Positions 3,511 to 64,000 of a stretch of DNA of 64,000 nt are shown in pieces. The notes under the pieces are model-generated. The model was not told where the DNA came from, made no database searches, and saw nothing but the letters and a program-made list of their open reading frames with translations. Every line of letters starts with the position of its first letter. The first letter of the stretch is position 1. Origin of the DNA: Eutreptiella sp. 'Long Island Sound 2002' (Eukaryota; Euglenozoa; Euglenophyceae; Eutreptiales; Eutreptiaceae); assembly GCA_964036045.1 (NCBI GenBank), contig OZ038383.1, positions 8,510,430 through 8,574,429 of the forward strand. The letters run 5' to 3'. The position numbers were made by a program, and so were the translations under genes.

Positions 3511-4923
3511 CACCTCGCAGAAGTTGCTAGATCAAAGCCAGGCAGGCGTATATAGGGGGAAAACGCCACATACCCCCCCCATTTTGGCCTTTTTGGGCCT
3601 ATTCGCGTACCCTACCCCAAGGGGTTGAATTGTTAGTTTAACCCCTTGTAAAATCATTATTTTGTCCAATAAACGCATCCCCCAATGAGTTTTTGGTCCG
3701 AACCCCCCAGACTCCCCCCACTTGAAACCCACTTTTTTGAGGTTTTCAGGGAGGGGGGGGGGGGGGGTGGGGGGGGGGTCAAAAATGTCGAAAAAAATGA
3801 CCCCCCCTTTTTTTGGGTCGAAAATCATGAATCTTTTGATTTTTTTCGATTTTGAGCCGAAAAAGTGTTCCCGGGTCCCGACTCTATGGGGTTTGTATGG
3901 GGTGTAGTGGGACGAGCGCTGATGCAGTTTATGCACTTTTCAGCCATTTTTGGTATGTTGGCAGTTTTGGCGACCTCGGTGACCCCGTGGTACCCACTCT
4001 GAGGGGTGTGAGTGGGGATGTTGTGACAGTATATGCCTACCAGGATACGAAAGGACGTTTTTTGCAGTCTCTAGCCTTGCTGAGAGCCGGTCACAACCCG
4101 TGCCAAAGACGCGAAATGGCTGTTTCCACCAATAATGGCCTAATGAATGGGCCGGTACACAACCTGCTGATGCAGTTTCTCACCCTGGGCAGCTCAAAAA
4201 TCGAAGTTTCTGAAACTTGTTTTTTTGATATTGTGACCACCTAAAATGACCATCCAAGCTATATAAAGCACGTTTTAGGCCGTATTTACATGTTTTTCAT
4301 CCAATTCGGGTATTAGTTTGGGGGGGGGGGGGTTCCCAAGGGATTTGTACACAACCTGCTTATGCAGTTTTTCACCCTGGGCAGCTCAAGAATCAAAGTT
4401 TTCGAAACTTGTTTTTTTTGATATTATGACGATCTAAAATGACCATCTAAGGTATGTAAAGCATGTTTTGGGCCTTATTTACGTGTTTTCACCCTATTTG
4501 GGTATTAGGTTTCGGGGGGGGGGGGTCTCCCAAGGGATTGGTACACAGCCTGCTGCAGTTTTTCACCCTGAGCAGCTCAAAATTCGAAGTTTTCGAAACT
4601 TGGTTTTTTGGTATTGTGACCACCTAAAATGACCATCCAAGGTATGTAAAGCATGTTTTAGGCCGTATGTACATGATTTTCACCCTATGTGGGTATTAGG
4701 TCCGGGGGGGTAGGGGGGCTCCCAAGGGATTGGTACACAACCTGCTGATGCAGTTTTTCACCCTGGGCGGCTCAAAATTCGAAGTTTTCGAAGGTTATTT
4801 TTTTGATATCGTGACCACCTAAAATGACCATCCAAGGTATGTAAAGCATGTTTTAGGCCGTGTTTATGTAGTTTCCATCCTATTTTGGGTGTGTTTTGCT
4901 CGGGGTAGATTCTCTGCGAGGTG
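3511..4923. mobile_element. ~1.4-kb repeat, copy 2
   Basis: Direct copy of 1,512-2,946. The left end reads CACCTCGCAGAA (3,511-3,522), one base different from copy 1, and the right end is CTCTGCGAGGTG (4,912-4,923). It also carries four tandem ~195-bp units, starting near 4,152, 4,347, 4,541 and 4,732. Copies differ mainly in the lengths of G runs and in scattered substitutions, which points to a fairly recent duplication or transposition. Confidence 0.55.
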
Positions 4924-11200: not shown

Positions 11201-11350
11201 CCCCCCCCCCCCCCCCCCCGGTCGTTGTCGGCACACTCCCGGCCAGCGTGACGCCGGCCGACTGCTCCCTTGCGCCCTGCCCAGGGAGAGCGTGTCTGGC
11301 AATTTCTCCCGCCGGCACGTGCTGGGTGCCCTCACAACAACAACAACAAC
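8299..11350 (+). mobile_element. Non-autonomous retroelement-like insertion 2
   Basis: The 5' part (8,299-9,230) closely matches 5,957-6,880 of insertion 1. The 3' part (about 10,470-11,350) matches the end of insertion 1, including the closing CAA/AAC tail. The middle differs: it holds ~445-bp repeats (9,357-10,440) and a GC-rich stretch (10,440-10,930) instead of the 49-bp array. No polymerase or endonuclease domain is present. Both insertions start at the same base and in the same register of the CCATA array. Confidence 0.6.
9357..10440 (+). repeat. ~445-bp tandem repeats
   Basis: Two and a half imperfect copies. Landmarks recur at fixed spacing: GATGCTGCAGCAGTCAGGCT near 9,370, 9,700 and 10,135; GACTCCACGGTGGAGGCAC near 9,499, 9,945 and 10,380. 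Each unit contains CCAAT and ATTGG facing each other across ~10 bases and several GCTGCAGCAGC-type palindromic cores. No credible reading frame. Confidence 0.8.
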
Positions 11351-11430
11351 ATACCATACCATACCATACCATACCATACCATACCATACCATACCATACC
11401 ATACCATACCATACCATACCATACCATACC
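11351..11430. repeat. (CCATA)n microsatellite array 3
   Basis: Sixteen pentamers between the CAA/AAC tail of insertion 2 and the truncated start of the coding retroelement at 11,431. The right junction (CATACC then TTCTGC) is in a different register from the junctions at 5,956 and 8,298, consistent with 5' truncation of the third element. Confidence 0.95.
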
Positions 11431-14400
11431 TTCTGCACGCCGCCCAGACCTCCTCGTCGCTACCCCCCCTCGCTCCGCGCCTCCGCCCTCCCTACAGTGT
11501 GCGGTTGGCTCGCCTCCTTCCCCCCGCCAACGCCACGACCCCTCCTTCTGGATCACCCCACCCCTGCACGTGGACGCCAAGTGGACCGCCTGCTGGGACA
11601 CCACCCACTTGCCGTCGGTCCCCCTCCCCCCGTCCCCAGCGTACGCTCGCTCGTCGGGCCCGGCCTCAGCGTGGACGCTACACCCTGCTCTCCCCGACGC
11701 CCCGCTCGTCGCCTCCTCCGCATGCCCCGACTGTGGCCGCCCCAGGCCTCACTCTGCCTTCGTTGACCTCCCCACATCCCCAACCGACCACTGGCCTCAC
11801 TTCTTCTGCACCTCCCCCCACAAGGCCCCGCCCATATGCACTCGGGACACCGCCGCCCGCTGTGTGGCAGGCTTCCAGGGCATGCTACTGCCCGGAGCTG
11901 TGCCCGTCTCGGCCATCCCCTGGGCCACCCCCTGCGCCCCCCCTCCGGACCGCCTCCTCCAGCTGACCCCCGCCTTCATCCTCTCCCTCCCCGACCCCCG
12001 CGACCAGGCATCCACCCCCCTCCGCGACACAGCCCTCACCTTCCTCACACACAACTGGGGCGGCATCACCGGCCAAGTCTCCCTCGCCCGCACCTGGCTC
12101 GAGGCCCTGTCCCCTGACGTGGTCGCCGAACAGGAACTGTGGGACTTGGCCGCAGCCCGCCCCGCCCTCCCACCACGATACGAAGCCCACTACAGCACCG
12201 CGTCCGGCCAGGGCTCAGGCCTCCGCACGGCCTGGCTCCGGTCCCTCCGCGCCCCCTCCCAGCCCGCCGACCTCGTCTACGACGGCCCACACTGGATTGC
12301 CTCCGCGGTCCCTCTCTCACTGGGGGGCCGCGCCCTCCTGTTCAACGCCCACCTCCCCCCGCGCCTCTCGTACTCCGAGTGGGTGTCCGAGGTCAAGCTC
12401 ATGAACCACCTCCGCTCCCGCATGCGTCCCGACCTGTGCGTCTTCCTGGGCGACCTCAACAGCACAGGCGCCCCAGGCACCCCCCTGGCCTCCGCGCTCG
12501 GAGCCTTGGGCCCACTGTCGGCCTGGCACCGCCTGGTCCCCCCAGCCACTCCCACCAACTTCACCACCCGCCACGGCTCCCCCCGGTCCACCGCCATCGA
12601 CCACATCTTCGCCACCGGACCCATCGCCTCCCACGCTCACCACGTCCTCCCCTGCCACACCTCGCACGCCATGGTGCTGGCGCAGGTCACCCTGCACCAC
12701 CGCTCCTGCGACGCCCACTCTTGGCGTCTGTTCCGATGGCGCCTGGCGACTCTCGAGGACATGGACTCCCTCTCAGCCGCCCTTGACCTAGCGTGGGGCT
12801 GGCTCTCCCTTTCCCCCTCCCTCCCCGACCACTACATCGCCGCCCACCACTTCATCGCGCACCAGCTGCTCCCGCACCCGCCCGACACCCCCGCCCTACT
12901 ACGTTCCCTGGCCCGGTTCACCTTTCCCCTCTCCACCCACGACCTAGCCGCCCAGTCCTCTGCCCTCCGGGAGGCGTCGGCCGCCCGCGGCTACGTCTCT
13001 CGCGCGGCCATCCTCTCCTCCCCCTCCATCACCTCCGCCACCCGCACCGTCCTCCGGCTACCCTCCCCACCCCTGGAACCGTTCCACGGCATCCTCCCCC
13101 ACCCGGGGGCCACCCTCGCAACCCGCGAGGAACGGCTCGCCGAGGTCACAGCTCGATCCCGATCCCAAACCGCCAACCGGCACGTCTCCGTGGACCACAC
13201 CTTCTTCGCCGCCCGCTGCACCCCAGACCCCTGGCTCCCCCTCCTGCACCCGCCCACCGACCTCACTCTCCCCCTCCTCCACGACGGCCTCCGCGCGAAC
13301 GCCCGACCCGAGTCTCCCGCCTCCCTCCAGGCGTACGCCCTCGCCCGCAAAACCTCCCCCCTCATCACCACCGCCTCCCTGGCCCACCGCCGCATGGGCA
13401 AGCGCTCCCTCGCCGTGTCCACTGACAACGTGGCACGCGCAGCGCTCTTCCGCAGCGGCGGGGGCGTTCACCTCGGGCTGCTTCACCTCCTCCTCCAACT
13501 AGAGTCCGGCACCCCAGGCGTCTCCAACAAGACCGTCTGCTACGGCCTCTACAAGGGGAAGCCTACCAAACCCCTCCCCCGACACCTCACACGCTCCTTC
13601 CGCCCCGTCGACGTCGAGTCGGGCGTCTCCGGCGCAGCCTCCGGCATCGCCACGACCCGCCTAGCCGCCGACCTCGAGCTCACCTCCACCTACACCCCCG
13701 CCTCCTTCGCCTACCGCCCGGGCCACTCCGCCCTGGGCCTCGCCCTCGTAGCCCGCGCCGCCACATACACAGCCCTCTCCACCCACGGCACCTGCGCCAT
13801 CTGCGACTGGGACGAGTCTGACGCGTAGCTCAGGGTGCTGCGCCAGGACAACTCCCGCCTCTGCTCCCACCTCCGCGCCACGTAGGACTTTGGCCCCCGG
13901 GCAGACGGCTTCTACAGCCGCCTGGTCATCCGCGTGGCCACCCGCGAAGGGTTCGCCCACCCCTTCAGCACCGAGGAGGGGGGCAACCAAGGCGCCGGGT
14001 TCGCCCAACTCCACTACCAGGCACCCAGCCTGGTGATCACCGGGGCCATGCGCCCCAACACTTCCATCACCCTCCCCCTCACCATCCCCGGCCACACCGC
14101 GTCCCTCCCCGCCACCCACCTCTCGTACAGCGACGACCGCCGCTTCATCACCCCCTCCCTCACGAACGGCAGCCATGGCCACCGACTGCCGCGAGTGCTC
14201 TCGCCGCGCCGGCCGCATCATCCACCCCGACAAGCAGGAATTCTCCCTCATCAATTCCCGCCCAGGCCGGCCCACCCTCGTCACCGCCGACGTTCCACAA
14301 CACACCGGCACCACCTCCACTGCCCCCCCAGAGGTCGTCGGCATCCCCATCCTCCCCGAGCTGCCCCTCGTCCGCGTCATCAACAAATCCCGCGCGTCCC

Positions 14401-16409
14401 TCGACCGGGCCCGCAAGGCCAGCCGCAACCGCGAGGCCTGCCCCATACTCCAGCTCCGCTCCCTACACACCTTCGGCCTCTCCCCCCTCGACTACGTCAC
14501 CTCAGGCGTCCTCATTCCCCCCGCCTCCCTCCGCCCCCATCAGACCGCCATCAACAGCGCCTACCGCCATGCCTTCCGTCTACCCCCCGGGGCACACACG
14601 GCCTTCCTCCACCTCCCCCTCCAACAGGGCGGTCCCGGCGCCCCCCTCTTGGCGTACCGGGCCCCCCTCAACCTCCTCCGAACCTACCTCCGCGCCTCTT
14701 GGGGCCCCAACACCCTCGCGGTAGCCGCCACAGCGTCCCTCGTCTCCCCACGCCGCCCCACCCCCTCGCTCACCGAAGGTCCCGCCCTGGCACAGGCGCT
14801 CGCCCCCCTCGGCGTCACCGTCCACCTCCTCCCCTCCCCCCACGTGCGCCCCGCTCCGCAGCACCACACCGGCTCACTGGCCCCCGTTCGCTCCCTCCCC
14901 TACGTCGTGGTCGCATGCGACGGAAGCCAAGAGGGCTCCCGCCTCGGCGCTTGCTTCCTCCTCTGGCACCCCCACCACGGCACTCTCTACCGCGGCTGGC
15001 TTGGCCCCCACGCCCTCGCCGGCCACTCCACCGACGCCGAGTGGATCGCCAAGATAGCCGCCATGTTCGCCCTCCGCGGCTGGTCCGGCGAAGCCCTCTT
15101 CGCCTCAGACTCCACCGCCTCCCAACTCTGCGACCTCACCCGCGGCCCGCCCCCCTCCTCCGCCCTCTCCATCCCGTACCGAGCGGCCCTCCTCTCCGCC
15201 ACCTTCCGCATGCACGAGGCCTGGCTCCCCGCGCAACACGACTCCGGCTCCGCCAGCCACCTCGCCACCCTCAACACCGAGGCCGACAATCTGGCCCGCC
15301 GCGGGCTCCACACCGCCTCCCCGTGGACCCTCCCCTGGTCCGCGCTCTTCCACGGCCGCATCGTGGCGCTCCGTGAAGGCGCGATCTTCCTGAGCCCCGC
15401 GCGCGCCGCAGAGGCAGCGTATGCGGCCACCACCACCCGCACCCATGCGCAGCACCTCCGGCCCCTGCCCCCAGGCTGGTCCTCTCACCTACTCCGCCTC
15501 GCGTATGAGCGCGCCGAGGTCCCAGCGCTGGCCCTCCACCGCATCATGCACCTGCGGCTACTACGCTCCCAGGACCATCCCCCCGGCTAGGGGGGAGTGA
15601 CGTGCCCCTTCTATCACCGCCCCTACCCGGACTCCGCCGCCCACCTCCAGTACCACTACCCCCCCCACTACGGCCTGCAATTGCTCCTCGCGTGGCGCCT
15701 GTTCACGCACCCTCCGGTTCTGTCTGCCACGGCGGGCCACCCCCCCCACCTCATCTCCTCTTTTGAGCTCCGCACGGCCACCGCCGCGGTGTACCTCGCC
15801 GACCACCTCCCAGCCGCCCCGCGACCTAGCCCCCCGACGCAGTTGGGGTTCAGTATGCTGGGCGTGTGGCACTCCACCTCCCCCCACGGCGCCTCCCCCC
15901 TGCTGGACAGCGCCGGCCGAGAAGAGCTCCTCCGCGAGCTCCTTTCCACCCTCAGCACGACGCACACGTCGCTGGCGTCACTCCTCCGCCAGGCCCCCTC
16001 CCACGTCGCCGCCCCCCCCCCCTCCCACCGCACGTCCCCACGCCGCCCTGCACACAGCCCCTCACACTGCGCCATAGCATCGCCCTGGTCTGGCTCCTCC
16101 GCCAGTGCGCCACGTGGCGCCTCACGGTGGACCGCCAGCCTGTGGTCCCACTCCCCCCGGCGGCCCTCCCGGGGCCGCACCCGGCCCACGTCGTGTTCAC
16201 CCCCGCGTCACGGGCCACGGACATCCTTCCGCTCCTCGCCGCGACCCCCCCCCGGGCAACGCGTCCTGCTTGCCGCAAACCCCTCGGTCCTCAGTGAGGT
16301 CCTCATCGGGCACGCCGATGCCCTGCACGTGCGCCCTCTGATGCCCGACCTGCACGTCGCGTACGCCCCCGGCACGCCCGTCGACCCCTCCGTGTGGGAC
16401 TCTCAGTGA
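11431..16409 (+). pseudogene. LINE ORF: endonuclease, reverse transcriptase, RNase H (broken)
   Basis: The protein would nick target DNA and reverse-transcribe the element RNA there. The endonuclease spans about 12,030-12,700: visible motifs are THNWGG, a VAEQEL Glu, FLGDLNS, IDHIFATG and SHAMV where SDH is usual. Reverse transcriptase runs from ~13,480: CDWDESDA is motif A, GGNQGAGF is motif B and YSDD is the catalytic motif C (~14,130). RNase H lies at about 14,905-15,300 with DGS, AE, SDS and EADNLA acidic residues. A Cys/His segment (CPFYH..HLQYH) starts near 15,603. In-frame TAG stops occur at 13,826, about 13,880 and 15,588. The frame shifts near 14,165, and again near 16,010 in a C run and near 16,260. 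No start codon remains because the 5' end is lost at the microsatellite. It is inactive as it stands, unless some lesions are assembly errors in homopolymers. Confidence 0.85.
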
Positions 16410-51900: not shown

Positions 51901-52227
51901 TGAATGACTGCCCTTTTGTTTTGCAGGTTCCCTTCTCCTCTCATCTGTTCTGGAATTTACTGCACGCTCGTTTGTGTCCGTCCATTCATTATAAACATGA
52001 TATTCCTTTGGCTGAATACGTGGGTCGCGCATCCACCTTGCATCCATCTGGACGTTTTTTTGTTTTGCCTGTATGCCATTGCTTTCTAGGAAGGTGAAGG
52101 TATTGTGAGTGTCCACAACAATGGGTTTGATGGTTGCAACTCAATTTGGACCCATTTTGATGCTTTTTGTATTTTTCAATTTTGCATCCACCCCAGGAGC
52201 GTTCTGCACATATTTCACGTTCGTATC
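48970..52227. other. No supported gene; upstream region of the SLC37-like gene
   Basis: Exon 1 of the minus-strand transporter begins at 48,969, so its promoter should lie here. A GC-richer patch at 49,100-49,540 has open frames on both strands without a recognisable domain. From 49,600 to 52,100 the DNA is AT-richer with no convincing exon. Confidence 0.35.
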
Positions 52228-52270
52228 ATGCATCCGCGTTTTGCATCCACACGCCGTTTTGCATCCCCGC
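52228..52270 (+). repeat. TGCATCC triplet array, copy 1
   Basis: Three TGCATCC words spaced about 13 and 18 bp, ending in CCCCGCAG, a good splice acceptor. It may therefore be the 3' end of a 5'-UTR intron of the piggyBac-like gene that starts at 52,328. Confidence 0.7.
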
Positions 52271-52480
52271 AGACGTTGGCAACGTCCGGACGGGCTCCCT
52301 TGTCTCTCGTACCAGCCCCTTTGTTCCATGCCTCCTCAAATGGCCGTCTGGGTGCCGCCCATTCCCCCAGATTGGCGCCAAGACGACTGCTCCTTGTTCC
52401 CGGCGGATCCCTCAATTGTGAAGCCCGGTCACACTGTTGTTCTCTTGGTATCTGTTTTTGCGCGCACACAACGTTGCCAA

Positions 52481-52669
52481 CGTGCATCCGCCTTTTGCAT
52501 CCACCCGCCCTTTTGCATCCACCGTTTCTACGTCTTGACAACAGTGCGTTCGTTGCGTACAAAACGTGCATCCATGCACTGTTTGCATCCACACGCCATT
52601 CTGCATCCTTGTTTGCACCGTTTGTACCGGTCGCTCCGAGCAGTTGTGCATCCACCCAGCACTATGCGC
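52481..52669 (+). repeat. TGCATCC arrays in intron 1
   Basis: Two full triplet arrays (52,481-52,522 and 52,566-52,608) and a partial one (52,646-52,669) fill the 237-bp intron between exons 1 and 2. The common form is GTGCATCC, then TTTTGCATCC, then ACACGCC, then TTTGCATCC. The intron ends CCTTTTGCAG. Confidence 0.75.
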
Positions 52670-53583
52670 ATCCACCTTTTGCAGAAGCCTCGTAGCCGCA
52701 ACGGCTTTATCTGCGGATGGGTGGACAAGAACAGGCCTGCCAAGAACGAACTGGTGTTGACAAAACCGAAATCATACGGTGTGACGGACAATCGCGACAG
52801 GATTATGGCAGGCACGACGAGAAATTGTGGGGAGAAGACTTACAAGTATTCAGGCATTAGCAAGTTGTGGGCACTTTACAAAAACGACGATCCACCAAGC
52901 GTGGAAGACGAGGAAGAGGAGGATGAGCAGGACGAGGAGGAAGAGGACGCTGACGACGAAGATGACGACGACGCTGCCCTTTTCGCCCATGGGACGGTTA
53001 GGGATGCCGCTGCTGGGGACAACGATGACGAACTTGTGGACGACCCTGACGATGACGTTCCTTTGGCGCAGTCTCTCTCCAAGCCGAAGAAGGACACAGA
53101 CGACAAGGGCAGGGACAACGACAAGGCCATCAAGAACCCAGAGATGGCAAAAGGAAAAGGTCCGAAGGTGCGCATTCAACTGGCAGGCACCGCAAAGAGC
53201 ATCACCACAAAGCCCACCCGATCAGAGCAACGATCGCAGTCGCAAGGGAACGTGGAGAAGATGGCGGCGTGTGGCGAGCAGCTGATCAAGAAGACTGGTA
53301 TCACCCCAGCAAGGCTCAAGGCGCATTACAAGAGGTGTCACGATGGGCTGGATCTGCAGACAGCAGGATTCAAACGTCGGGAAATTGGGCTCTGCACGAC
53401 TTTGGTGACAGGCGGGGCACAGGACCAGTTGATGGAGTTGTTTGGGATGCGGGCAGACCACTGCAAGGCGTTCCCGACGGCAAGAATGCTGCTGCAGAAC
53501 ATGCACAAGACAAACGCCGCCTTTGGAGACGCTGATGCCTATGCAGGTACTTCACATGCGCACGAGATGTATAATACGTTCAG

Positions 53584-53700
53584 AACGTGCATCCGGGTTT
53601 TGCATCCACACGCCATTTTGCATCCCCGCTTATACCGCTGCGCACGAAGCGTCCATGACGTGCATCCACCGAATGCATCCACACGCCGTTTTGCATCCAC
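53584..53700 (+). repeat. TGCATCC arrays in intron 2
   Basis: Two more triplet arrays in the 172-bp intron between the donor at 53,547 and the acceptor ending 53,718. Same orientation and spacing as the intron 1 arrays, so the two introns share a repeat although the exons do not. Confidence 0.75.
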
Positions 53701-53787
53701 CTGCACCTGTTTCCACAGTGCTGTTCCTCGGCAAGATCGCAAGCTGCCCCACGTGTGCCAGCGCGCAAGGATCCGGTGTGTTGCCTA

Positions 53788-53826
53788 GTATGGGATGCAG
53801 CGTTCTAGGGCGTGGTGCGGAACCCC
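53788..53826 (+). repeat. Left terminal inverted repeat of the 7.1-kb element
   Basis: Identical over 39 bases to the reverse complement of 60,845-60,883. A second, imperfect inverted match (CAATTTTGGG) follows at about 53,829. Confidence 0.95.
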
Positions 53827-53970
53827 CCCAATTTTGGGTGTTGTTAATATGGTTGGAACCCGGAATTTCACATGTTACATGGGTGCACTATGATGCAACA
53901 ATGTGCCTTCCATGTATTGTTTGCTCGATATTGCCCGTTTTGCACTTTTTGCGATTTGATCTTTGTGTGC

Positions 53971-54119
53971 TCTAACTAGTTATCGCGGGGTTAGAACGGG
54001 GTTAGAGCACTAGTTATCGCGTGGGTTATCGCGCGATAACCTAGTTATCGCGGGGGTTATCGCGGGGGTTATCGCGCGATAACTAGTTATCGCGTGGGTT
54101 ATCGCGAGGGTTATCGCGC
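53971..54119 (+). promoter_or_regulatory. TTATCGCG array 1 (subterminal, upstream of the oxygenase gene)
   Basis: Nine forward TTATCGCG words, two of them fused into the 16-bp palindrome GTTATCGCGCGATAAC. Spacers are short G-rich runs. A polypyrimidine tract and TTTAG (54,150) lie between it and the first ATG. Position and orientation fit transposase-binding subterminal repeats and/or a promoter. Confidence 0.75.
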
Positions 54120-54177
54120 TTCATTTTATGTTTCCCCTTTTTCGCTTTAGCTCTCAAATCCTTCGTACTCTTTGATA

Positions 54178-57100
54178 ATGGCCCTTGCTGCTGCCCACGC
54201 TTGGTGCGAGCACCATCAAAAGCTCCTTGGGGTCCGTCGCCTTGGCGGTCCTGAGGGGTTTACGATGGGTGATGCCAATGTGAGGCGCCCTGTGGCGACC
54301 CGCTTTGAACATGGTGTGGACTTTGGACTCCTTGTCCATAAGTCCCCCTTCATGGCGGACAACCGAGACCCCCTGGTTCTCAGCAACTACATCTTCGAGT
54401 TGCTAGAGGTAAATCCAGGGGTTGCTGGATTCTTGATTCAGCTTCATCCGGACGATGTGGACGCCGTGGTGGAGTCCGTCACCGCCCATGCCGAGAAGGG
54501 TGCGGGGACGAAGACGACCCTCTATGTGGGTCAGGAGGAGGAGGAAGTGGAGGAAGTGGAGGAGGAGGAGGAGGATGCGGGGGGGGTGGGGGCTGGGGGG
54601 AGGAAGGAGAAGCCCCACAACCCCCTCATGATTAGTGTCCAGAAGGTAAGGATCCGACCGGGTAAGGGGAAGGGGCAGTCGGATGGTTGGTTCCCCCAAC
54701 CCCTCACCCACAACACCCGCCGGGTCTGCACTGACGACCCCGAAAACAAGCTCCCCATGCACTCCCTTTGCCCCACAAGGGAGTGGGAGCGTGAGTGGTA
54801 TGGGGTCACCACTCCCAACATTGTTTCGGGGCAGGGGGTGATTCTTTTTCCATTTGGGGCAACACCCCCCCTTATTGGGGAGGCGGAGGAGGTGGTTGCC
54901 GCCGAGCCCTTGGGGGCCTTTAATAGGGACCCCAATGACCTTGTGCAAACGGTGGGGGGGAAGCTGGTGGTCAACCACCTCCTGGAGCACGATTTTTTGA
55001 GTGCTGTGCAGCTCCAAAGTCTTTTGGATGATTTGGATAGGGTGCCTCTCTCAGAGAAGGCACCCATTTTCAATGAGAACCCCCCCATTGTCGGCAGGCC
55101 CCAAGATTCTGGGACCCGCCGTACATTGTACGGCAACTATGGGGGTGCCCACCACCACAGGCACAACCCCCACAAGCTCCATGATCTGCCAGTCCTCAAA
55201 AGGGTGGCAGATCGTGTGCTTGAGACGGCGAAGAAGACTGTGGTGGGGGGGGTTGGATGGAGCTGCACCATCCTTGACATGGCCGAAATTTCGAGCTATG
55301 ACCACACCCCCCAGCACCTCCATCGCGACGCCCCCCCCTACACCATTCCTGAAGGCACATTGATTGTCAATTGCCTTATTATGCTAACCCATAATCATGA
55401 GGAGGAGGATGGGTCACATTTTCTTTTTGTGCCCTCCAGCAGTTCGGGGTTCCCTGACCCTTGGGTGGAGAGGGCTGTGCCATTCAAGAGGGGCACTGCC
55501 TTTTTTTTTAATGCCCTTGATGTCCACAGGGGGTCGGGGATTCCCAAGGCCTCCCCCACGGGGGTGTCCCACCCCCGCCTCATGGCATTTTTTGCCATTG
55601 AGCTTACCGTGGGGGGGAATCTTCGATTCCCCAACCTGCACGTGACCCAGTCCATTAAGAGGCCCCAGCTGGGGGCACCTGGTGGCCGGGTGGCCAGGAC
55701 AGTCCAGTGTGATGGGGCGGTTAGGTGTAGGGGGAAGGTGGTAGCCAATTGCTACGGATGCAATCGGCTGATTTTGTGCACCGCCCACAAAGATGGCCTT
55801 TGTGTGCCATGCCAGGAGGGGGAGGAGGTGGAGGGGGGGGAGGAGGAGGAGGTGGTGGTGGACCCCAATGGGGTCAGCATTGAGCAATCTGCTCAGTGCT
55901 TGCTCCCGGTGGGAACAACCACCGGGCATTTTTTGTTGTCGGGGTGGGGGGTTGGGAGGGAGGTGATTGCCCCCCTCACTAATGAGGAGGCGGGGGCGGT
56001 CGCAGGCCACCCCGATCAGTGCCCCTTGGCCAAGGTGTGCCATGGGGAGGCACTGCCCTGGCCCACCCTGCAAGGGCATGTTGGGATGAAGGTGCCGGCG
56101 GGCACCATTTTGGTGGTGAGGAGGGGGTTGTATGGGGGAGTGGCAAGGGTGGCCCCTGAGGCGGAGGGGGTGGCCCAGGTGGTGGAGTGGCGGCAGGTGG
56201 GGGAGTATGCGGCCGTCACGGACTTCGTGTGGCTGCGGAGGCTGGGCCTGGTGCTGGACGACGCCAAGAAGGAGGGCCAAGGCATGTGTCCATGTCACCA
56301 GGTGTGAAAACCTCCCACAACACCCTGCTCTAACCCCTGCTCTAACTAGTTATCGCGCTAGGTTATCGCGTTCTAACTAGGTGCTCTAACTAGTTATCGC
56401 GCTAGGTTATCGCGTTCTAACTAGTTATCGCGGGGTTATCGCGGGGGGTTATCGCGGTGGTTATCGCGCGATAACCTAGTCATCGCGGGGGTTATCGCGC
56501 GGGTTATCGCGTGTTTTTTTTTTGTTTCTTTTGTTTTTTTCAGGCCACCATCTTGCAGCTGCCCCGCATCTTCGTCAAGGACGACGCCCAGGCAGCCGAC
56601 GCAGCGGGCGGAGCGGCAGCAGCAGCGGGGGCACGGCCCGCCAAGCCGGTGGCGGCCCGGTTGGAGCTGGAGGGGGAGAAGAGGCTGCCGGAGGGGGCGT
56701 CGTGGCGGTTTGGGGAGCCTGGGGATGAGGCCTGCAGGATGGGGGGGACGGGATGGTACCGGCAGGTCACCATCACAGAGAAGGAGGGGGGGGTGGAGAG
56801 GAAGACCAACCTCACCCTCCCCTCCTATGTGTGGGTTGGGGGGGAAACGGCCAAGTGGCCGCAAGCCGCAGAGGGGGAAACGGTTGCGGCTTTTTTGTGT
56901 TTGTTTGGGATGAGCGACCCCCCCCAAAGGAAATCTTATTTCCTTTTGAGGGTGTGTTTTTTGTGGGAGGGGGAGTATACGGGGAGGGAAGTGTGGCAGA
57001 AGCTGCACAGGGGGGGGGACATCCACCAGGTTGGTGGGTATGACCCCCCCCCTTCTGTGGGGGACGCCACTGCCGAATGGATTCGGCAGTATGCACCCAA

Positions 57101-57752
57101 GGGGGGAAGGCCGGGAAAAGGCCAGACGAAGCGGGGACCAGACGTGGTGGTGGTTGAGCCGGATGCCCCCCCCCCCCTTAGGGGTAAGGGCCAAACCCCC
57201 GCCCCCAAGCCCTCCCCCAAGCCATCGAAGGTGGCAAAGGTGGCGGCAGCCCAGCCCCCCCATGAGGCCCTGGACGTGGAGGCCTTGGGGGCCAGTGTGG
57301 CCACCCACGTGACGGACGCTTGCCAGGTTTTGGTGGAGCAGGCGGCCGCCACGGGGGTCGAGGCCGCACTGGCCAAGGGTCGGTCGGCCGACCACAGGTC
57401 GGCCTTGGCAAAGGCCGAAAAGGCCCAGGGCAACACCCAGCGTGCCCTGGACCAGGCCCTCAACCTGGCCGCCAAGAGGGGGGAGGAGGTGGAGGCGATG
57501 AGGGAGGCCCTGAGGGAGGCCCAGGAGGGGAGGCGGAAGGCGGAGGTGGAGGTGGCCCAGCTTAGGGTGGAGGTGGAGGGGCAGCGGAGGAGGGGGGATG
57601 ACCTTGGGCAGCGCTTGGGGGTGGCTGAGGCGCAGGTGCGCAGCCTCACCTCCACCCTCTGTGCCTCCTTCGGGGCGCAGCAGGCCCAGCAGGGGCTGGC
57701 GCCGCAAGGGTTGCAGAGTCAGGGTAGCGGGAGTAGGAGTGGGAGCCAATGA
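54178..57752 (+). CDS. 2-oxoglutarate/Fe(II) oxygenase fused to a coiled-coil region
   Basis: Two exons, 54,178-56,301 and 56,544-57,752. The donor CAG/GTGTGA and acceptor TTTTTTTCAG/GCC keep phase 0; without splicing the first frame ends only two codons past the donor. Counting from 54,172, the oxygenase shows His384-x-Asp386 in LHRDAPPYT, distal His452 in DVHRGSG and Arg469 in HPRLMAFF. This is the facial triad plus the 2-oxoglutarate-binding Arg of the double-stranded beta-helix fold. A Cys/His cluster (about 527-547: CYGC, then C-x2-H, then CVPC) looks zinc-binding. Acidic runs surround residues 125-140 and 555-565. The second exon ends in a long Ala/Glu/Arg helix likely to be a coiled coil. 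Such enzymes hydroxylate proteins, nucleic acids or lipids; the substrate is unknown. The codon use is intact and looks functional. Confidence 0.7.
56331..56513 (+). promoter_or_regulatory. TTATCGCG array 2, inside an intron
   Basis: About ten forward TTATCGCG words and one full GTTATCGCGCGATAAC palindrome. They make up most of the 242-bp intron 56,302-56,543 of the oxygenase gene. Their presence in an intron means they are not simply promoter elements between genes. Confidence 0.7.
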
Positions 57753-57755
57753 CTA

Positions 57756-58364
57756 GTGGATTTGCTCAGGGGGTTGCCCAAGGGCATTTTTCGTGGGGAG
57801 GAGCGATATGGGGCCCAAGTGGACATGTGCCACTTTGGCCTCGTGGGAAGTGGAAACCCCAACCCCTCTAATTTTAGGGCGACCCACATGGCCGCTGCTA
57901 CCCTCAGGCCTGCCCTCACCCCCTTGGTAGCAGACCTCAATGGGTATTGCACCTCCAATGCTCCACCATGGTTCACATGGTGTAGCATCCAAATTGTTCG
58001 CCCCCAAGGGACGGACACCATGGGCCTCCACTCCCATTTGCGGGATGGGGCGCCCATGGCGCTTATTGTGTGTGTGGGGTCTTTCACGGGGGGTGAGTTT
58101 TGGGTGGAGAGTGGTGGCCTGCTGAATCCCTCCTTGAGGGAAAAAAAGCGGCACACCCGTGTGTGCAAGGGTAGGGCGGTGGAGGGTTGGGCATGCACCG
58201 CCACCCCCCAAGCCCCGGTGTTGTTCAACACCAGGGCACTACACGCTCCATTGTCATGGGAGGGCGAGCGATGGAGCGTGATTTTTTATAGTGCGGGGGG
58301 GGTTCTGCACTGCACGCCTGTGTGGCGGCAGCAGCTGCTGTCCATGGGTTTTAGGGTCCTCTAA
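57756..58364 (+). CDS. TET/JBP-like oxygenase domain, HxH variant
   Basis: A ~200-residue frame starting right after the TGA (57,750-57,752) of the preceding gene and in the same frame. It has no ATG at its start (CTA then GTG), so it is either read through the UGA, spliced, or started internally. The layout is that of a TET/JBP-type double-stranded beta-helix. It runs SIQIVRPQGTDTMGLHSHLR, then MALIVCVGSFTGGEFWVESG, then PVLFNTRALHAPLSWEGERW and SVIFYSAG. Counting from 57,756, His92 begins the metal motif, but the usual H-x-D is H-x-H here (His94). The distal His163 and the Arg172 expected to bind 2-oxoglutarate are present. If active, the family oxidises methylated bases in DNA. The missing Asp makes normal Fe(II) chemistry doubtful; halogenases and some lyases of the wider fold also lack the acid. 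Confidence 0.5.
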   Translation: MDLLRGLPKGIFRGEERYGAQVDMCHFGLVGSGNPNPSNFRATHMAAATLRPALTPLVADLNGYCTSNAPPWFTWCSIQIVRPQGTDTMGLHSHLRDGAPMALIVCVGSFTGGEFWVESGGLLNPSLREKKRHTRVCKGRAVEGWACTATPQAPVLFNTRALHAPLSWEGERWSVIFYSAGGVLHCTPVWRQQLLSMGFRVL

Positions 58365-58580
58365 CCCCTCCAGCTGATTCGATTATTGTTCACTATTTCT
58401 ATTACTGTCTAGCCCGGAACATTTGAGAGGCACCCTATCCAAATCATCCAAAAGACTGTGTGACTGATTTGAATTTGTGATTGTGGCGCCATGTACCCCG
58501 TGCCTGCACATTGTTGACATCTCCAAGGTTTCCTGGGTGCAAAATCAACGTTTGTGAAGGTTTTAGGGTGCCCAACGCTT

Positions 58581-58768
58581 GCTCTAACACCACCAGTTAG
58601 TGCGCACTAACCCCTGCTCTAACTAGTTATCGCGGGGGTTATCGCGCTCTAACTGGGTGCTCTAACTAGTTATTGCGGGGGGTTATCGCGCTCTAACTAG
58701 TTATCGCGGGGGGTTATCGCGGGGGTTATCGCGCGATAACCTAGTTATCGCGGGGGTTATCGCGTGGG
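58581..58768 (+). promoter_or_regulatory. TTATCGCG array 3, upstream of the transposase gene
   Basis: Nine forward TTATCGCG words, one TTATTGCG variant and one full 16-bp palindrome. CTCTAACTAG phrases separate them, as in array 2. A pyrimidine-rich stretch and GCGCCCAG (ending 58,825) follow, so the array may sit in a promoter or in a 5' intron of the transposase gene. Confidence 0.7.
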
Positions 58769-58840
58769 TTATCGCGTGTGTTTTTTGGGCCCTTGCTTCA
58801 AAACCCTCCCTCATTTCGCGCCCAGGTCCTCTTATTCTTC

Positions 58841-60499
58841 ATGGACAATGCTGTCAATGAGGCCCTGCGGGCTCTCAACACAGCCAACCTGCGGCGGTAC
58901 ACCGATCTGCAGTGCCCCAAGGCCCGGCGGCGGCGTTTGAAGGCGGTTCAGCGGCTGGTGCGAGTTCTATTGGGTGACCCAGACGTCGTGTGTGGCACCA
59001 ACACCAAAGGCGAAGTTTGTTTAAGTGGTGGGGCGTGCACTGCCCTGTCTGGCCCACTTGGCGGCCATCTTGCATTAACAGCTCAGGAGCATGAGGCCCT
59101 GAGCATGCTACGCATGGCATGCAGCATGCATCTCTCCCAACGGGCCCTTTTGCGAATGCCCCGCCGTTGCACACAACGGGACCTAAGGACCGTTCGGCAA
59201 CGGATCATGCCCTACTTTCCCCAAACCACCATTGTAAAGTCTACCACAGGCCGCAATAGGGCAGCTGCCCATGTGCCTTTGCAATCAATTGTGCAAAATG
59301 CAATATCTATGGCCCGAGTTATTGGGAAACCCCCCCCTAGTGGCGTTGCCATTATTGTTATTTCAGTTGATGCGACTTCCTTGTGGAAGGCATCCTCTAC
59401 CCGTGCGGATGTATGGGTTAATGTATGGGGGGGGGCAAAATATGCTTCGAAGGTGAAGCTATGGGCCTCATGGTTTTGCATGGATGGCGGGGATGAACAG
59501 GCTTTTTTGAGAAGCCTTGACATCTCCGCCAACCTCAACCAAGAGGTGAGGGATGTGGAAGAGGACGTTGTCCTCTTTCAAAACCAATTTTTGACTTGCA
59601 CTGTCATTTTGACAGGGGATGGGAAGGGGATGCAAGCAATGGGGGGGGCTGGGTCTAAGTGTTGGTTGTGCAAAGACCCCAATGGGATTGTTGAGCAAAT
59701 GGGGGTGGAGTCCACCTCAAGATGGGGGTCATTCTTGAGAAGTGTGACCCCTGATAGGCGGCCGGGGGACTACCAACATGCAGCATGCCGCATCCTAAAC
59801 GGCATTGCAAAGCGCATTGAGACCACCCTCCAGGCCCTCCCCCCTAGTACCCCTGGTAAGGCCCAAGCTCTTGCAGCTTTGCAGGCCTTCAAACAAGCCC
59901 TCAAGGATGAGACCGCAGGCATCCCTCTTAGGGAACGCCTCCCTTCGGCCTCGAGGGCCACAGAAAAAGATTTCGATCTAACCAGCACCAAAGTTTTCCT
60001 AACCTCCCCCCCCTTCCAAAGGCAATTTGTGGAATGCCTCAAAGAGCATGTCCCCACAGTGAGGACCCCTGGGGGACCTATGTTATGGGTTGTTGTGCAT
60101 GTCATGGTGAAATGCATTGAGGGTTTGTATGAGCTTTGGAGGGTGAGGGAGTTGTACACTCTAACCCAAGTGGAACGCCACCGTGCGTTGACCACAAAAT
60201 TTTCAAAAGCGTGGGGAGACTCAGGTTGGTCCCCCACCAGGTGGATCCATTGGTGCTTGGCACATTCCACCTTTTTTGCCGAGAAATGGAGGAACATTTT
60301 TCAGTTTTCCTCCATCCCAACGGAGTATCGGCATGGGCCTTACAAGAGGAGGCTCAAAAATTGTTTTAAGGGTTGGTCTTTGCTGAGGCCAAGTATGTCC
60401 CTCCGCCACATGCACCATTGCATGTCCATGAACGCCCTGGAGCAAGGGCTTTTGGGACTGGAGGCAGCCAAGGCCACAGACATTGATGACTTTGTATGA
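58841..60499 (+). CDS. Candidate DDE transposase of the 7.1-kb element
   Basis: Open from the first ATG at 58,841 to TGA, 552 residues. The frame is open upstream to 58,778 and an AG acceptor lies at 58,825, so a spliced start is possible. An RNase-H-like core is suggested by VISVDATSLWK (Asp near residue 177), TGDGKGMQ (Asp near 260) followed by a CWLCK Cys pair, and TEYRHGPYKRRLKN near the C terminus (Glu near 495). A GDxK motif followed by Cys residues, then a late Glu in a basic helix, is a layout seen in several poorly classified eukaryotic transposases. The N-terminal third is basic with Cys residues and may bind DNA. I cannot assign a superfamily. It is the only transposase candidate within the terminal repeats. 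Confidence 0.55.
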   Translation: MDNAVNEALRALNTANLRRYTDLQCPKARRRRLKAVQRLVRVLLGDPDVVCGTNTKGEVCLSGGACTALSGPLGGHLALTAQEHEALSMLRMACSMHLSQRALLRMPRRCTQRDLRTVRQRIMPYFPQTTIVKSTTGRNRAAAHVPLQSIVQNAISMARVIGKPPPSGVAIIVISVDATSLWKASSTRADVWVNVWGGAKYASKVKLWASWFCMDGGDEQAFLRSLDISANLNQEVRDVEEDVVLFQNQFLTCTVILTGDGKGMQAMGGAGSKCWLCKDPNGIVEQMGVESTSRWGSFLRSVTPDRRPGDYQHAACRILNGIAKRIETTLQALPPSTPGKAQALAALQAFKQALKDETAGIPLRERLPSASRATEKDFDLTSTKVFLTSPPFQRQFVECLKEHVPTVRTPGGPMLWVVVHVMVKCIEGLYELWRVRELYTLTQVERHRALTTKFSKAWGDSGWSPTRWIHWCLAHSTFFAEKWRNIFQFSSIPTEYRHGPYKRRLKNCFKGWSLLRPSMSLRHMHHCMSMNALEQGLLGLEAAKATDIDDFV

Positions 60500-60568
60500 A
60501 AAACGACCACAGATGCTTTGTGCCAAGTGTTTTGTGTTGTTTGTCCTAGGGAGGGAGGGAGGAGGGGT

Positions 60569-60690
60569 GCGCGATAACTACCCGCGATAACTGCGCGATA
60601 ACTGAGTTATCGCGCGATAACTAGCGCGATAACTAGTTAGAGCAAGGTGCTCTAACTGCGTTCTAACTCTGTTCTAACTGTGCTCTAACT
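60569..60690 (-). promoter_or_regulatory. TTATCGCG array 4, inverted (right subterminal)
   Basis: Five CGCGATAAC words (the reverse complement of the motif), one of them inside a GTTATCGCGCGATAAC palindrome, then four CTCTAAC or TTCTAAC phrases. The orientation is opposite to arrays 1-3, so arrays 1 and 4 form a pair of inverted subterminal repeats. Confidence 0.75.
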
Positions 60691-60844
60691 CTTTGACCCC
60701 CCCCCCAAAAACCACCCCCATGATGCGGGTTATGTGGGGAAAGAAAGGGGATGGGGGGTTTTTGAGGGTGCTGAATCCATTTTTTTAGGTGGTTTGCCCC
60801 AAAATTGAGGGTAGGTGGGTGTTCCAGAAATTGCGTTCTAACTA

Positions 60845-60883
60845 GGGGTTCCGCACCACGCCCTAGAACGCTGCATCCCATAC
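60845..60883 (-). repeat. Right terminal inverted repeat of the 7.1-kb element
   Basis: Exact reverse complement of 53,788-53,826. The next base resumes the interrupted exon of the piggyBac-like gene. Confidence 0.95.
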
Positions 60884-61388
60884 CCTCGGCTCGGCGAAGG
60901 AGGAGCACGCGCCCCATGGTGTACCCCTGGGTGCATTGCGCAGGTTTGGCGCTGAGAAGGCCCTGTTGTCTGCGGGTGGAGCTGCGTCGGAAGCAGGCAG
61001 TTACAGTTATCGTTCCATGGGTTCGCGCCGCAGCACTGTGGCCCTCTCCCCAGCAGACATCCTGAATATGCCGGACAAGGAGCTCGTGGACCAGTTTGAT
61101 CGTGCCCTAGGTATGCTTTCCTACATCCACGCCGAGATCTGCGACCGTCGTGAGCTTGACCCCCCAACACAGCGTGGCCGTCACCGCCTTGTGGACAAGG
61201 ACAGCCTGGCGCAGATGGAGAAGGCACGCAAGAAGGCAGAGGACAAGAAGCGGAAGCGCAAGGAAAAGAAGCGGGAAAAGAAGAGGGCCAAAAAGCAGAA
61301 GAAGCGCGCGAAGAAGAAGGGGAAGTACGACACGTCCTCTTCATCGTCCTCCATGACAGCTCGAGCGCTACGAGTTCCTCTTCAGCTG

Positions 61389-61830
61389 GATCCGAGGATC
61401 AACGCAAGGCCGAGGAGCAACGCAAGGCCGAGGATCAACGCAAGGCCGAGGAGCAACGCAAGGCCGAGGAGCAACGCAAGGCCGAGGAGCAACGCAAGGC
61501 CGAGGAGCAACGGAAGGCCGAGGAGCAACGCAAGGCCGAGGAGCAACGCAAGGCCGAGGAGCAACGCAAGGCCGAGGAGCAACGCAAGGCCGAGGAGCAA
61601 GGCAAGGCCGAGGAGCAACGCAAGGCCGAGGAGCAACGCAAGGCCGAGGAGCAACGGAAGGCCGAGGAGCAACGCAAGGCCGAGGAGCAACGCAAGGCCG
61701 AGGAGCAGCGCAAGGCCGAGGCGCAACACAAGGCCGAGGCGGAACGTAAGGCCGAGGCGCAACGCAAGGCCGAGGAGGAACGCAAGGCCGAGGAGGAACG
61801 CAAGGCCAAGGAAGACGCCAAGGCCGAGGA
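61389..61830 (+). repeat. 18-bp coding repeat (AEEQRK)n
   Basis: About 24 units of GCCGAGGAGCAACGCAAG. Unit length is exactly 18 bp throughout, so the frame is kept and encodes a charged single-helix or coiled-coil linker in the piggyBac-like protein. The frame joins the transposase domain downstream without interruption. Upstream it is out of frame with the Lys-rich segment by one base, with the break in the Ser-codon run near 61,350. Confidence 0.85.
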
Positions 61831-61867
61831 CGAGCAATCCACACTTACTTTACTAGGGCCCACACCA

Positions 61868-63274
61868 ATGCCTGCACCTGCGGTTGCCACCCGGGCACGC
61901 AGCTACAACACTGGACCTCTAGCTGGGACTGAGTCTACGCTGCACATCCCCCAGAAGTTCAGCGCAGGGAGCAGCACCCTACCCATGACGTCAACCATGA
62001 GTGAGGTCTTCCTACACTTGCTGGAACCGTTGCTGGTGGCGCAGCACCGCTGCCTGGCCCGCGTGGGGAAGATGTACCTACAGGATAGCCTACTCAAATA
62101 CAATGTGTTCAAGATTGGTTTAGGGATGGCTCGTCTACGCCGTGTTGACGACGTATGGCGGTGGCGGCCGAATGGGGTAGTAGCGGTCCCTCGCCTCAAA
62201 GCCCTCATGCCGCGGTCGGAGTGGTACACGTTGAACCGTGTTCTAAACGTGGACGTCGCCGGGTTGCTGCAGGCATGTAATAGGCAATGGAGTAGTCCAT
62301 GGAAACCCGGGACAGCCGTAACGGGGGACTAGACAATCGTCCCCCATAAAGGAAAGCGTGCGGGCAAACTACGACAGTTTGTCCCACGCAAACCCCATAG
62401 TACGGGGTTAAAATTATATTGCATGTCGGACGCTGGGTTAAAATTATATTGCATGTCGGACGCTGTCCGGCCTTTTATAATGGACATGTATCCTTTTGAG
62501 GGACGCCGAGGTGTTGTTCGCAACGCCACAAACGATTGTGTTGGGAAAAACACACCCACACAAATGGTCCAGCATTGGCAGGCCCTAGCCCCAAGCGAAA
62601 GCATTTTGGTATGCGACTCGTATTTTGGTTCAGCGCACACTGCTGCATATTTGACCAGTGCAGGGCAGCCCTTTGTCCTACTCGCCAAGCGCAATGATCA
62701 TGGGGTAGGTGAATTGGGTGCGAATTTGCGTGAAGGGGAGGAGGAGTGTGCGGTGGCCTGTGACCTCCCGTTTGCCTTGCATTGTTTCAAGAACCCGAAA
62801 GTAGGTGGCAAGGCTGCGCGCGTGGTGCCCATGTATACAAATTGTAGTGTAGACCCAGCGCTTTGGCGGCATCCCGGAGGCCATTGGCTACCTCCGTTGG
62901 TGGGTGCCTACCGTTCTCTAGCGGCCGGCGTAGACCAAGCCAATGCCCTAGCCTTGCATTTTCGGGAGATCCAAAGGCTTCAAACGTGGTCTAGAGCACT
63001 GCGTGCTTTTGTGCTCCGGTACGGAGTAGTGAACACTATTAGCACGTGCAAGGATCTGTGCCTGGTGCCAGAAGAGACTTCCCTTTGGGATTTCCAACGC
63101 ATGTTGCTCGATGATTTTTTTCCGGAGGAACGGTTTGCCAAAAAAGAGGTGCATTGCATCAGGGCGACCGTGAAGCGGGGCGTGTGTGCATATTGTAAAA
63201 CGGGGCGTGTTGCCTGGGTCTGTGCAGCTTGCCGTGTGCCACTACACACCTGGTGTTTTGCACATTACCATTGA
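61868..63274 (+). pseudogene. piggyBac (DDE_Tnp_1_7) transposase domain
   Basis: All three catalytic aspartates can be placed by motif. The first is Asp at 62,327 in TAVTGD, followed by VPHKGKRAGKLRQF. The second is Asp at 62,615 in VCDSYFGSAHTAAYL. The third is Asp at 62,933 in AAGVDQAN. A C-terminal Cys-rich domain (CAYCKTGRVAWVCAAC then HTWCFAHYH) matches the zinc-binding tail that recognises piggyBac ends. The codon after the first Asp is TAG (62,330-62,332) where the family nearly always has Glu, so GAG to TAG is the likely change. A 30-bp unit encoding GLKLYCMSDA is duplicated in frame (62,405-62,434 and 62,435-62,464). It has the full domain length otherwise. Confidence 0.8.
62405..62464 (+). 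repeat. In-frame 30-bp tandem duplication
   Basis: Two identical 30-bp copies back to back add ten residues right after the first catalytic Asp region. Other piggyBac proteins have this segment once. Confidence 0.95.
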
Positions 63275-63384
63275 GTGTAGACCGTCACCGTGACAACTGA
63301 AGTGCAGTGCAACGTTGCTCGTGGGTAAGAAAACAGGGTTCGATGCGTAGAAAACGTACGATACGTGGAAAACGTGTAGAAAAC

Positions 63385-63522
63385 GTGCATCCGGGTTTTG
63401 CATCCACCCGCCTTTTTGCATCCCCCCCCTAGAAAACGTAATGAACGTGGAAAGCAAGGAAAACGTACAAAACGTTGGGAACGTGCATCCGGGTTTTGCA
63501 TCCACACGCCAATATGCATCCA
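63385..63522 (+). repeat. TGCATCC arrays downstream of the piggyBac-like gene
   Basis: Two triplet arrays, at 63,385-63,426 and 63,483-63,522, identical in layout to those in introns 1 and 2. Between and around them lie many AACGT words (GAAAACGT, GGGAACGT, GGCAACGT). They may belong to the 3' UTR, another intron or the right end of the piggyBac element. Confidence 0.75.
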
Positions 63523-64000
63523 CCCCTGTTCCCCCTGTGAAAAGCACACGTTCCCAACAGTGCGTTCCATGCGTTGGCAACGTACGTTCCCAACAGGTTT
63601 TTAGGGGTGGATGCGTAGTGAATGTACGTATTGTAGCCAAAGGAATATACAAAAACAAGGTCCCATTTCTCGCCGCCTCTTGTGCGGCTACTGAAGCCCA
63701 AGGGTCTATACGTGGTTGGTTGGGTCCACCGCGTCAACAAACAAAAGAAGAAATTCGAGTTCACCCACGACCAAGAGTGCGCGCCGCGGGGGGTTGAAAT
63801 CAAGGATGGCAAAGCGGTCAACCAGGCGTTCCCCAATGTTTGTGAATATGGCTTTGGCAATGTGTACCCTTCGTGAACCGGCCGTTTGAATCCGAGATTC
63901 ACGGTACCGTGAATTTCACCTATTTTTGCTGTGTTTTGCTCGTAACTTGGTGCTATCGTGTGCTTTTGTCGTGCTATCTTCGCCCAAAGTAAGATCCAAC
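63523..64000 (+). other. 3' flank, no supported gene
   Basis: A short plus-strand frame at about 63,682-63,876 reads GLYVVGWVHRVNKQKKKFEF and ends in TGA. It may be an exon running into the region or a decayed piece. The window ends without a clear partner. Confidence 0.3.

Follow-up and report, generated by a model that had tools for sequence, protein, structure and literature searches.

The 64,000-nucleotide stretch of the Eutreptiella sp. 'Long Island Sound 2002' genome analyzed here (assembly GCA_964036045.1, contig OZ038383.1, positions 8,510,430 to 8,574,429; hereafter "the window", to which all positions below refer) contains a mobile cut-and-paste DNA transposon with terminal inverted repeats (TIRs) and a constant TA target-site duplication. 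We think it probable that this is a complete and recently active euglenid element in which a transposase of the CMCT group travels with two oxygenase-like proteins: a PhyH-like 2-oxoglutarate (2OG) oxygenase encoded by open reading frame (ORF) A and fused to a second frame, ORF B, and a TET-like domain added to that fusion by readthrough of a stop codon. According to this reading, the oxygenases would serve to keep the element itself from being silenced.

The first-pass annotation of the window had described a 7.1-kb element with perfect 39-bp inverted ends, and this description stands with a slight refinement. Each of the three proteins proposed there corresponds to a long open frame; ORF B, the probable phase-0 intron between A and B, the in-frame TGA and the GTTATCGCG arrays described below were not part of it. 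The two arms (53788-53826 and 60845-60883; 39 nt each) are 100% complementary, no longer perfect inverted repeat is present in the window, and a chance origin is rejected because only about 9e-15 inverted pairs of 39-mers are expected from composition. The left 113 bp of the element matches 40 scored places in the 2.28-Gb assembly, the window's own included (the best 40 of 334 first-look candidates), and at 26 of these the match is full length at 100%. Ends without a second copy, the outcome named at first pass as fatal to the proposal, are therefore not what the assembly holds; as a copy number, a count made by ends is a lower bound. At 13 of the 40 listed places the match begins only at base 2 of the left end, the base outside the right TA differs among copies, and the TA itself is constant. 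We therefore place the TIR at 36 bp and the element proper at 53791-60880 (7,090 bp), laid out as TA / TGGGATGCAGCG...CGCTGCATCCCA / TA with the terminal motif TGGGATG..CATCCCA; the 39-bp arm thus consists of the TIR, the duplicated TA and one chance base pair.

Twenty of the other 39 places were fetched, 8 kb each and all with a full-length left-end match. Those carrying full-length copies are L014, L020 (99.7%), L022 and L026, at 7.09-7.14 kb, and some of the others are internal-deletion derivatives, such as the 0.69-kb L016. The fetched set also includes a non-autonomous subfamily (L012, L013 and L025) that shares these TIRs but carries, in place of part of its middle, a tandem array of 42-bp units built from the subterminal motifs, with 29, 13 and 29 exact seed copies, respectively.

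Mobility, for which the first-pass annotation had looked to other copies with the same ends and a constant target duplication, is borne out by the flanks of these copies. The right end lies within the 8 kb, with TA flanking both ends, in 13 of the 20 fetched copies, as it does in the window; it is absent from the fetched stretch in six (L010, L015, L017, L023, L024 and L028). When the flanks of L012 and L021 are joined with a single TA, each aligns without gaps to an unoccupied paralogue, over 323 bp at 83.6% and 243 bp at 91%, respectively, and we conclude that the duplication is TA and nothing longer. The joined flanks of L011 form an open PiggyBac-like frame that is homologous across the junction to window positions 62771-63157 (48%). 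Some details fit this picture less well: L009 has two candidate right ends, neither with TA, the paralogue of L021 has TG at the target, and a comparison of L016 with L012 (176 bp, 81%), where the target reads TT, contains small gaps immediately to the left of the junction.

The 552-aa protein encoded in the right part of the element is most probably a DDE transposase of the CMCT group (EnSpm/Mirage/Chapaev/Transib/RAG1-like), a placement made on the D-D-C(2)C-H(4)H-E order together with the TA duplication. Inspection of its motifs identifies D177, D260, CWLC at 274-277, HWCLAH at 470-475 and E495, a spacing of D-83-D-14-CxxC-193-HxxxxH-20-E. The corresponding distances in RAG1 are D-108-D-19-C..C-207-H..H-20-E, and the 20 residues from H to E are the same in both. 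Among 20 aligned rows, degraded copies included, the expected residue is present in 11 of the 14 rows with a residue at D177, 16 of 18 at D260, 15 of 17 at each C, 11 of 12 at H470 and 10 of 13 at H475. The first-pass remark that the transposase does not look like KDZ agrees with these results: the KDZ families, which we take to be present in Pfam-A, give no match there, and the duplication is a 2-bp TA.

Several observations weigh against the CMCT assignment. E495 is E in only 8 of the 12 rows with a residue at that position, and the AlphaFold model, with a mean predicted local distance difference test score (pLDDT) of 32, is unusable. No transposase family in Pfam-A matches up to E=10, the window protein giving nothing and 20 members giving two single-member chance matches, and a search of PDB sequences with the transposase returns a best E of 0.41 and no RAG1/Transib match. 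The lack of Pfam and PDB matches would be expected if the protein belonged to a new DDE superfamily outside CMCT and its C2C/H4H resemblance were coincidental. The same can be said of its 41 listed relatives, which lie on ENA contigs and are all close (69-100% identical where aligned, with the best 8,000 word-sharing candidates scored), and of termini that read TGGGATG..CATCCCA and not the usual CA..TG. The last difference is not decisive, the CMCT terminal signature being said to hold "in most cases" only in the available part of PMC12730594. We nevertheless consider a separate superfamily unlikely: the D, C, H and E residues fall in order at distances near those of RAG1, and TA duplications are known in the ESTA elements covered by the same text (PMC12730594). 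The "new superfamily" of the first-pass annotation is thus probably too strong a term for a motif order that is most simply that of the CMCT group.

Within that group, the combination of features points to fungal ESTA as the nearest in kind. ESTA, from Pucciniomycotina, is described in the available part of PMC12730594 as having a CMCT signature, TA duplications and a TET gene. The element in the window resembles it in its TA duplication, its TIRs, its CMCT-type C2C/H4H signature and the presence of a TET/JBP-type oxygenase beside the transposase. It differs in its euglenid host, its second, PhyH-like oxygenase, the arrangement of the oxygenases in one interrupted frame and its TGGGATG termini, a comparison made with ESTA as described in that text. 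PHISTA, a TET-positive Harbinger-type element of rust fungi covered by the same partial source (PMC12730594), also has a TA duplication and a TET gene together with a third protein, but our transposase shows the C2C/H4H order and matches no Harbinger family in Pfam. As for the KDZ class (Kyakuja, Dileera, Zisupton), its members are DNA transposons with a TET/JBP-type passenger and its TET-bearing elements are the classical case (PMC12730594, available part); with no KDZ match in Pfam, and a TA duplication where Zisupton is given 8 bp in that text, membership is highly improbable and we reject it. An IS3EU-like reading was also rejected: IS3EU is described there with termini TAYGG..CCRTA and 6-bp duplications (PMC12730594), and the flanks contain no 6-bp duplication.

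ORF A carries an intact 2OG motif set, H382-x-D384, H450 and R467, which corresponds to the HxD...H triad and the 2OG arginine. The canonical HxD..H..R oxygenase proposed at first pass is therefore confirmed: among the alignment rows that reach them, H382 and D384 are each present in 8 of 8 and H450 and R467 in 9 of 9, with eight of the nine rows coming from a second, 26%-identical family. The motif order is that of the PhyH superfamily (PF05721), although the Pfam match of the window protein falls below the curated cut-off (16.4 bits vs 22) and only two of nine aligned members match PhyH at E <= 1, the best (1.5e-4) being a second-family member. Speaking against the assignment, 7tm_2, a chance family (best E 0.03), is matched by three of the nine. 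ORF A also has a long N-terminal region, a Cys-rich stretch (recognized by eye) and a C-terminal region, which set it apart from PhyH and have so far been seen in common only with the second family.

This second high-copy protein family was reached through the chimera P0034 (15 matches). One of its proteins, P0164, falls in a 151-member cluster and shares 26% identity with ORF A across 511 columns. At L007, a single partial locus found through a first-family copy inserted there, the second-family ORF ends in ...CICNQ followed by GTATTT, an exon end like the phase-0 end of ORF A (...CPCHQ, then GTGTGA). An array of GTATACGGCCGTATAC, a CpG palindrome distinct from the GTTATCGCG of the present element, lies about 0.3 kb past that ORF.

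ORF B opens at 56544 after TTTTTTTCAG, in the same phase as ORF A. The end of ORF A and this shared phase are most simply explained by a phase-0 intron that yields one A-B protein of 1,110 aa, and ORF A is thus probably cis-spliced to ORF B, which contains a probable coiled coil and whose only Pfam match is a weak one to ATG16 (E=0.021). Beyond the TGA that closes ORF B, the frame runs in phase into the TET-like ORF. The TGA is kept in all eight of the copies covering the site (21 examined), and the bases after it are CTAGT in seven (TGACTAGT) and CTCGT in one (TGACTCGT). For human cells, the available part of PMC4359377 gives UGA CUA, ideally followed by G at +7, as the consensus for high readthrough; this consensus may not hold for the euglenid host. 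All 150 scored genomic copies (the best 150 of 4,189 first-look candidates) have a TET-like open frame of 203-215 aa, so that no copy among them combines a replaced stop with an open ORF B in front of it. It seems reasonably likely that UGA-CUA-G readthrough yields a minority product that carries the TET/JBP-like domain and is 1,314 aa long, as against 1,110 aa.

A distinct possibility, though not the one we prefer, is that the TGA is a true stop, so that A and B form one protein and the TET-like domain is made separately (about 179-202 aa), starting at the GTG of codon 2 or at Met-25, or else translated from a trans-spliced mRNA of its own. Most database versions of the TET-like ORF do begin at the GTG directly after TGA-CTA, printed as M, and the RNA folding signal 3' of the TGA is weak (z -1.8; 11 of 200 shuffled sequences scored as well). 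In Euglena, mRNAs receive a spliced leader, and the Euglena leader sequence has 2,580 exact matches in the assembly (1,233 + 1,347) vs none for a reversed control, which would make trans-splicing available here and places the host, more narrowly than the "protist-like genome" of the first-pass annotation, among euglenids. A sense codon at the stop position in two diverged database copies, P0052 and P0059, sits poorly with recoding. A true stop, however, would leave the first Met at codon 25, yet 12 aligned proteins show almost no variation upstream of it at L8, P9, F13, A21, V23 and D24; nor would it account for a frame shared with ORF B in the eight covering copies or for an exact match of TGA-CTA-G to the readthrough consensus. 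Insertion of selenocysteine at the TGA was considered and not adopted (no search for a selenocysteine insertion sequence was made).

The label TET/JBP-like is a lead taken from motif order alone, namely H.H..D, FTGGE-W, H-x8-R and a last strand in the series GLHSHLRDG...IVCVGSFTGGEFW...LFNTRALHAPLSWEGERWSVIFY, an order that presumably resembles that of fungal TET/JBP proteins. At least 150 open copies of the ORF, all at least 98% identical, are found among the same scored candidates. What stands of the first-pass claim is a second oxygenase-like ORF with this motif order; a Tet_JBP profile match and a canonical HxD do not accompany it. The Pfam Tet_JBP profile matches neither the window protein nor any of its 12 aligned members (one of which gave a chance match to another Pfam family, E 0.29), a search of the genome with the PF12851 profile leads to a single, unrelated place and does not detect the ORF, and the best E against PDB sequences is 0.98. 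The metal motif is HxH or HxxD (H93-S-H95-L-R-D98) and not the canonical HxD, its residues being kept in 10 (H93), 11 (H95) and 11 (D98) of 12 rows. Given this non-canonical motif and the lack of a profile or PDB match, all of which tell against a working TET/JBP enzyme, the protein may be inactive or may belong to another 2OG subfamily.

In the assembly, Pfam Tet_JBP matches a single protein, 534 aa long and encoded on a small contig (L037, G000:C2034), and a profile comparison of it with the TET-like alignment, which is shallow (effective number of sequences, Neff, 1.4), gave a probability of 0.1. Its second half is like phage glycosyltransferases and it resembles proteins of 27 bacteriophage records, so that the contig is probably of phage or contaminant origin. 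Behind the TET-like ORF, at 58425-58460, lies an inverted duplicate, 36 bp long, of part of ORF A (55015-55050), which the window shares with L020 and L026. Near the end of the TET-like ORF, 11 bp have also been lost from the window and L020, giving it a shorter C-terminus.

ORF A and the transposase are under purifying selection. Omega (nonsynonymous relative to synonymous change) was estimated from substitutions found in two or more of 21 copies, against a neutral expectation that weights transitions 2:1. ORF A has a value of 0.34 (0.23 in its 2OG part), ORF B 0.54 and the transposase 0.21; singleton changes yield 0.61-0.80 for the individual ORFs and 1.06 for the oxygenase part of ORF A. 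The value for the TET-like ORF (0.90) is near neutral and speaks against constraint on it, but with only seven shared changes the test gives no demonstration that this ORF is maintained.

The element also contains four arrays built on GTTATCGCG (Table 1), a motif that occurs within the element 29 times in direct and 9 times in inverted orientation and is absent from the remainder of the window. The CpG observed/expected ratio is 1.45-2.06 in the arrays, 0.41-0.50 in the ORFs and 0.68 in the rest of the window. Among the 21 copies, transitions at CpG in the ORFs (87 of 5,519) exceed those at other C/G sites (214 of 37,077), and in the arrays they do not (22 of 2,512 vs 36 of 2,885), a pattern that hints at a methylated body with protected arrays. 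Set against this, the difference between arrays and ORFs at CpG has p=0.012 by cells but p=0.56 by sites (not significant), and non-CpG C/G transitions are commoner in the arrays than in the ORFs (p=7e-5), an excess that may be alignment noise because tandem arrays are hard to align.

If the preferred interpretation is correct, the transposase would cut at the TIRs, probably helped by binding the GTTATCGCG arrays, and the A-B protein, together with a readthrough minority of A-B-TET, would be drawn to these same CpG-dense arrays. There the oxygenases may oxidize a host modification, whether 5-methylcytosine (5mC), base J or a chromatin substrate, and the promoters and ends would in this way stay unsilenced and open to the transposase. 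Action on host marks of the element's own DNA is, in our view, the most likely function of the oxygenases. The VANC proteins of VANDAL/Hiun elements in Arabidopsis are anti-silencing factors, though not oxygenases, and provide a parallel for an element-encoded factor acting on its own short-motif noncoding arrays; in the present case the link between array and protein is a putative one.

It is unlikely, but far from negligible, that the oxygenases are instead passengers without an anti-silencing role, acting on a protein, RNA or small-molecule substrate, or that they are inactive remnants. ORF A resembles PhyH, whose superfamily includes small-molecule hydroxylases, and the metal motif of the TET-like ORF is the non-canonical one described above. 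Purifying selection on ORF A argues against such a role, as do a relative of ORF A that recurs in a second high-copy family, sharing its exon end and followed by a GTATACGGCCGTATAC array, and the fungal precedents in which TET genes are joined to transposases (PMC12730594, available part).

A bolder version of the self-unsilencing interpretation can be put forward, with the caution that we find it rather doubtful as a whole. In this version, the element would represent a euglenid branch of the RAG1/Transib-type (CMCT) transposons in which a protein made by programmed UGA readthrough, combining two different 2OG oxygenases with a coiled coil, is aimed at family-specific CpG-palindrome arrays in the element's ends and introns and strips or rewrites the 5mC or base J of the element's own DNA. 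On this view, the existence of another family, with an ORF A and a CpG array of its own, would point to an arms-race radiation. Dooijes and colleagues are said to have reported base J in E. gracilis in 2000. The DNA of this species also carries methylated cytosine, according to the available part of PMC12455990, and the euglenid line is of interest here for having a nucleus reported with both modifications.

TET-bearing DNA transposons are themselves already known in fungi, where TET genes coupled to transposases have been described (Kojima 2025, PMC12730594, available part). What appears to be new here is the second oxygenase type and another eukaryotic branch. Among the matches listed in a search of the open-access literature, with subscription papers outside its range, we did not find the second oxygenase, the stop-codon arrangement or the euglenid host in print, nor any transposon-borne TET/JBP genes in Euglena. 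If our reading holds, transposon capture of DNA-modifying oxygenases has also occurred in a eukaryotic line distant from fungi, where it would have come to include another type of oxygenase and perhaps a recoding device to set the ratio. Furthermore, because the element exists in many near-identical copies, the anti-silencing hypothesis is directly testable within one genome.

Table 1. Features of the transposon, in window positions
Feature	Position	Strand	Basis
TA target-site duplication, left copy	53789..53790	.	TA flanks the window's copy and 13 of 20 fetched ones on either side; empty sites
Left TIR, 36 bp, TGGGATGCAGCGTTCTAGGGCGTGGTGCGGAACCCC	53791..53826	+	inverted-repeat comparison; recurs in other copies
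Left subterminal array, GTTATCGCG / CTCTAAC units	53968..54125	+	CpG-rich, consensus CpG observed/expected 2.06
Candidate splice acceptor AG ahead of ORF A (spliced leader or intron of the 5' untranslated region)	54149..54150	+	kept in 10 aligned copies; putative role
ORF A, PhyH-like 2OG-Fe(II) oxygenase, 708 codons	54178..56301	+	reading frame, motifs, alignments
Probable GT-AG phase-0 intron, ORF A to ORF B	56302..56543	+	frame arithmetic and aligned copies
Second GTTATCGCG array, inside the A-B intron	56327-56512	+	motif count
ORF B, 402 codons: N-terminal part, then probable coiled coil	56544..57749	+	reading frame
In-frame TGA CTA G, ORF B to TET-like ORF, readthrough consensus	57750..57756	+	aligned copies
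TET/JBP-like oxygenase ORF, 203 codons	57753..58364	+	GLHSHLRDG ... SFTGGEFW ... ALHAPLSWEGERWSVIFY
Third array, GTTATCGCG / CTCTAAC units, upstream of the transposase	58582..58776	+	motif count
Candidate splice acceptor AG ahead of the transposase	58824..58825	+	kept in 9 aligned copies covering it; putative role
Transposase, 552 aa	58841..60499	+	reading frame, relatives, motif inspection
Right subterminal array, same units inverted, CGCGATAAC	60566..60690	-	motif count
Right TIR, 36 bp	60845..60880	-	inverted-repeat comparison
TA target-site duplication, right copy	60881..60882	.	flanks of copies and empty sites

The surroundings of the element, and one of its copies, contain probable traces of other mobile DNA. 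An element of the PiggyBac type may surround the transposon (window 52200-53787 and 60884-63600): positions 62333-63271 match Pfam DDE_Tnp_1_7 (9.4e-11), and related TGCATCCAC-type repeats flank the element at 52.2-53.7 kb and 63.4-63.5 kb. In L024, an insertion of about 0.53 kb with inverted ends TCCTTTGTCTAC..GTAGACAAAGGA (approximately 3723-4273, oriented) lies in the region of the TET-like ORF and is apparently a miniature inverted-repeat transposable element; a piece akin to it is also found in the second-family protein P0163. Farther upstream in the window, the stretch at 11252-15590, beside short tandem repeats, is probably a long interspersed nuclear element, with an endonuclease ORF (11252-13825; Pfam Exo_endo_phos, 2.1e-11) followed by an ORF that is RNase H-like by eye.

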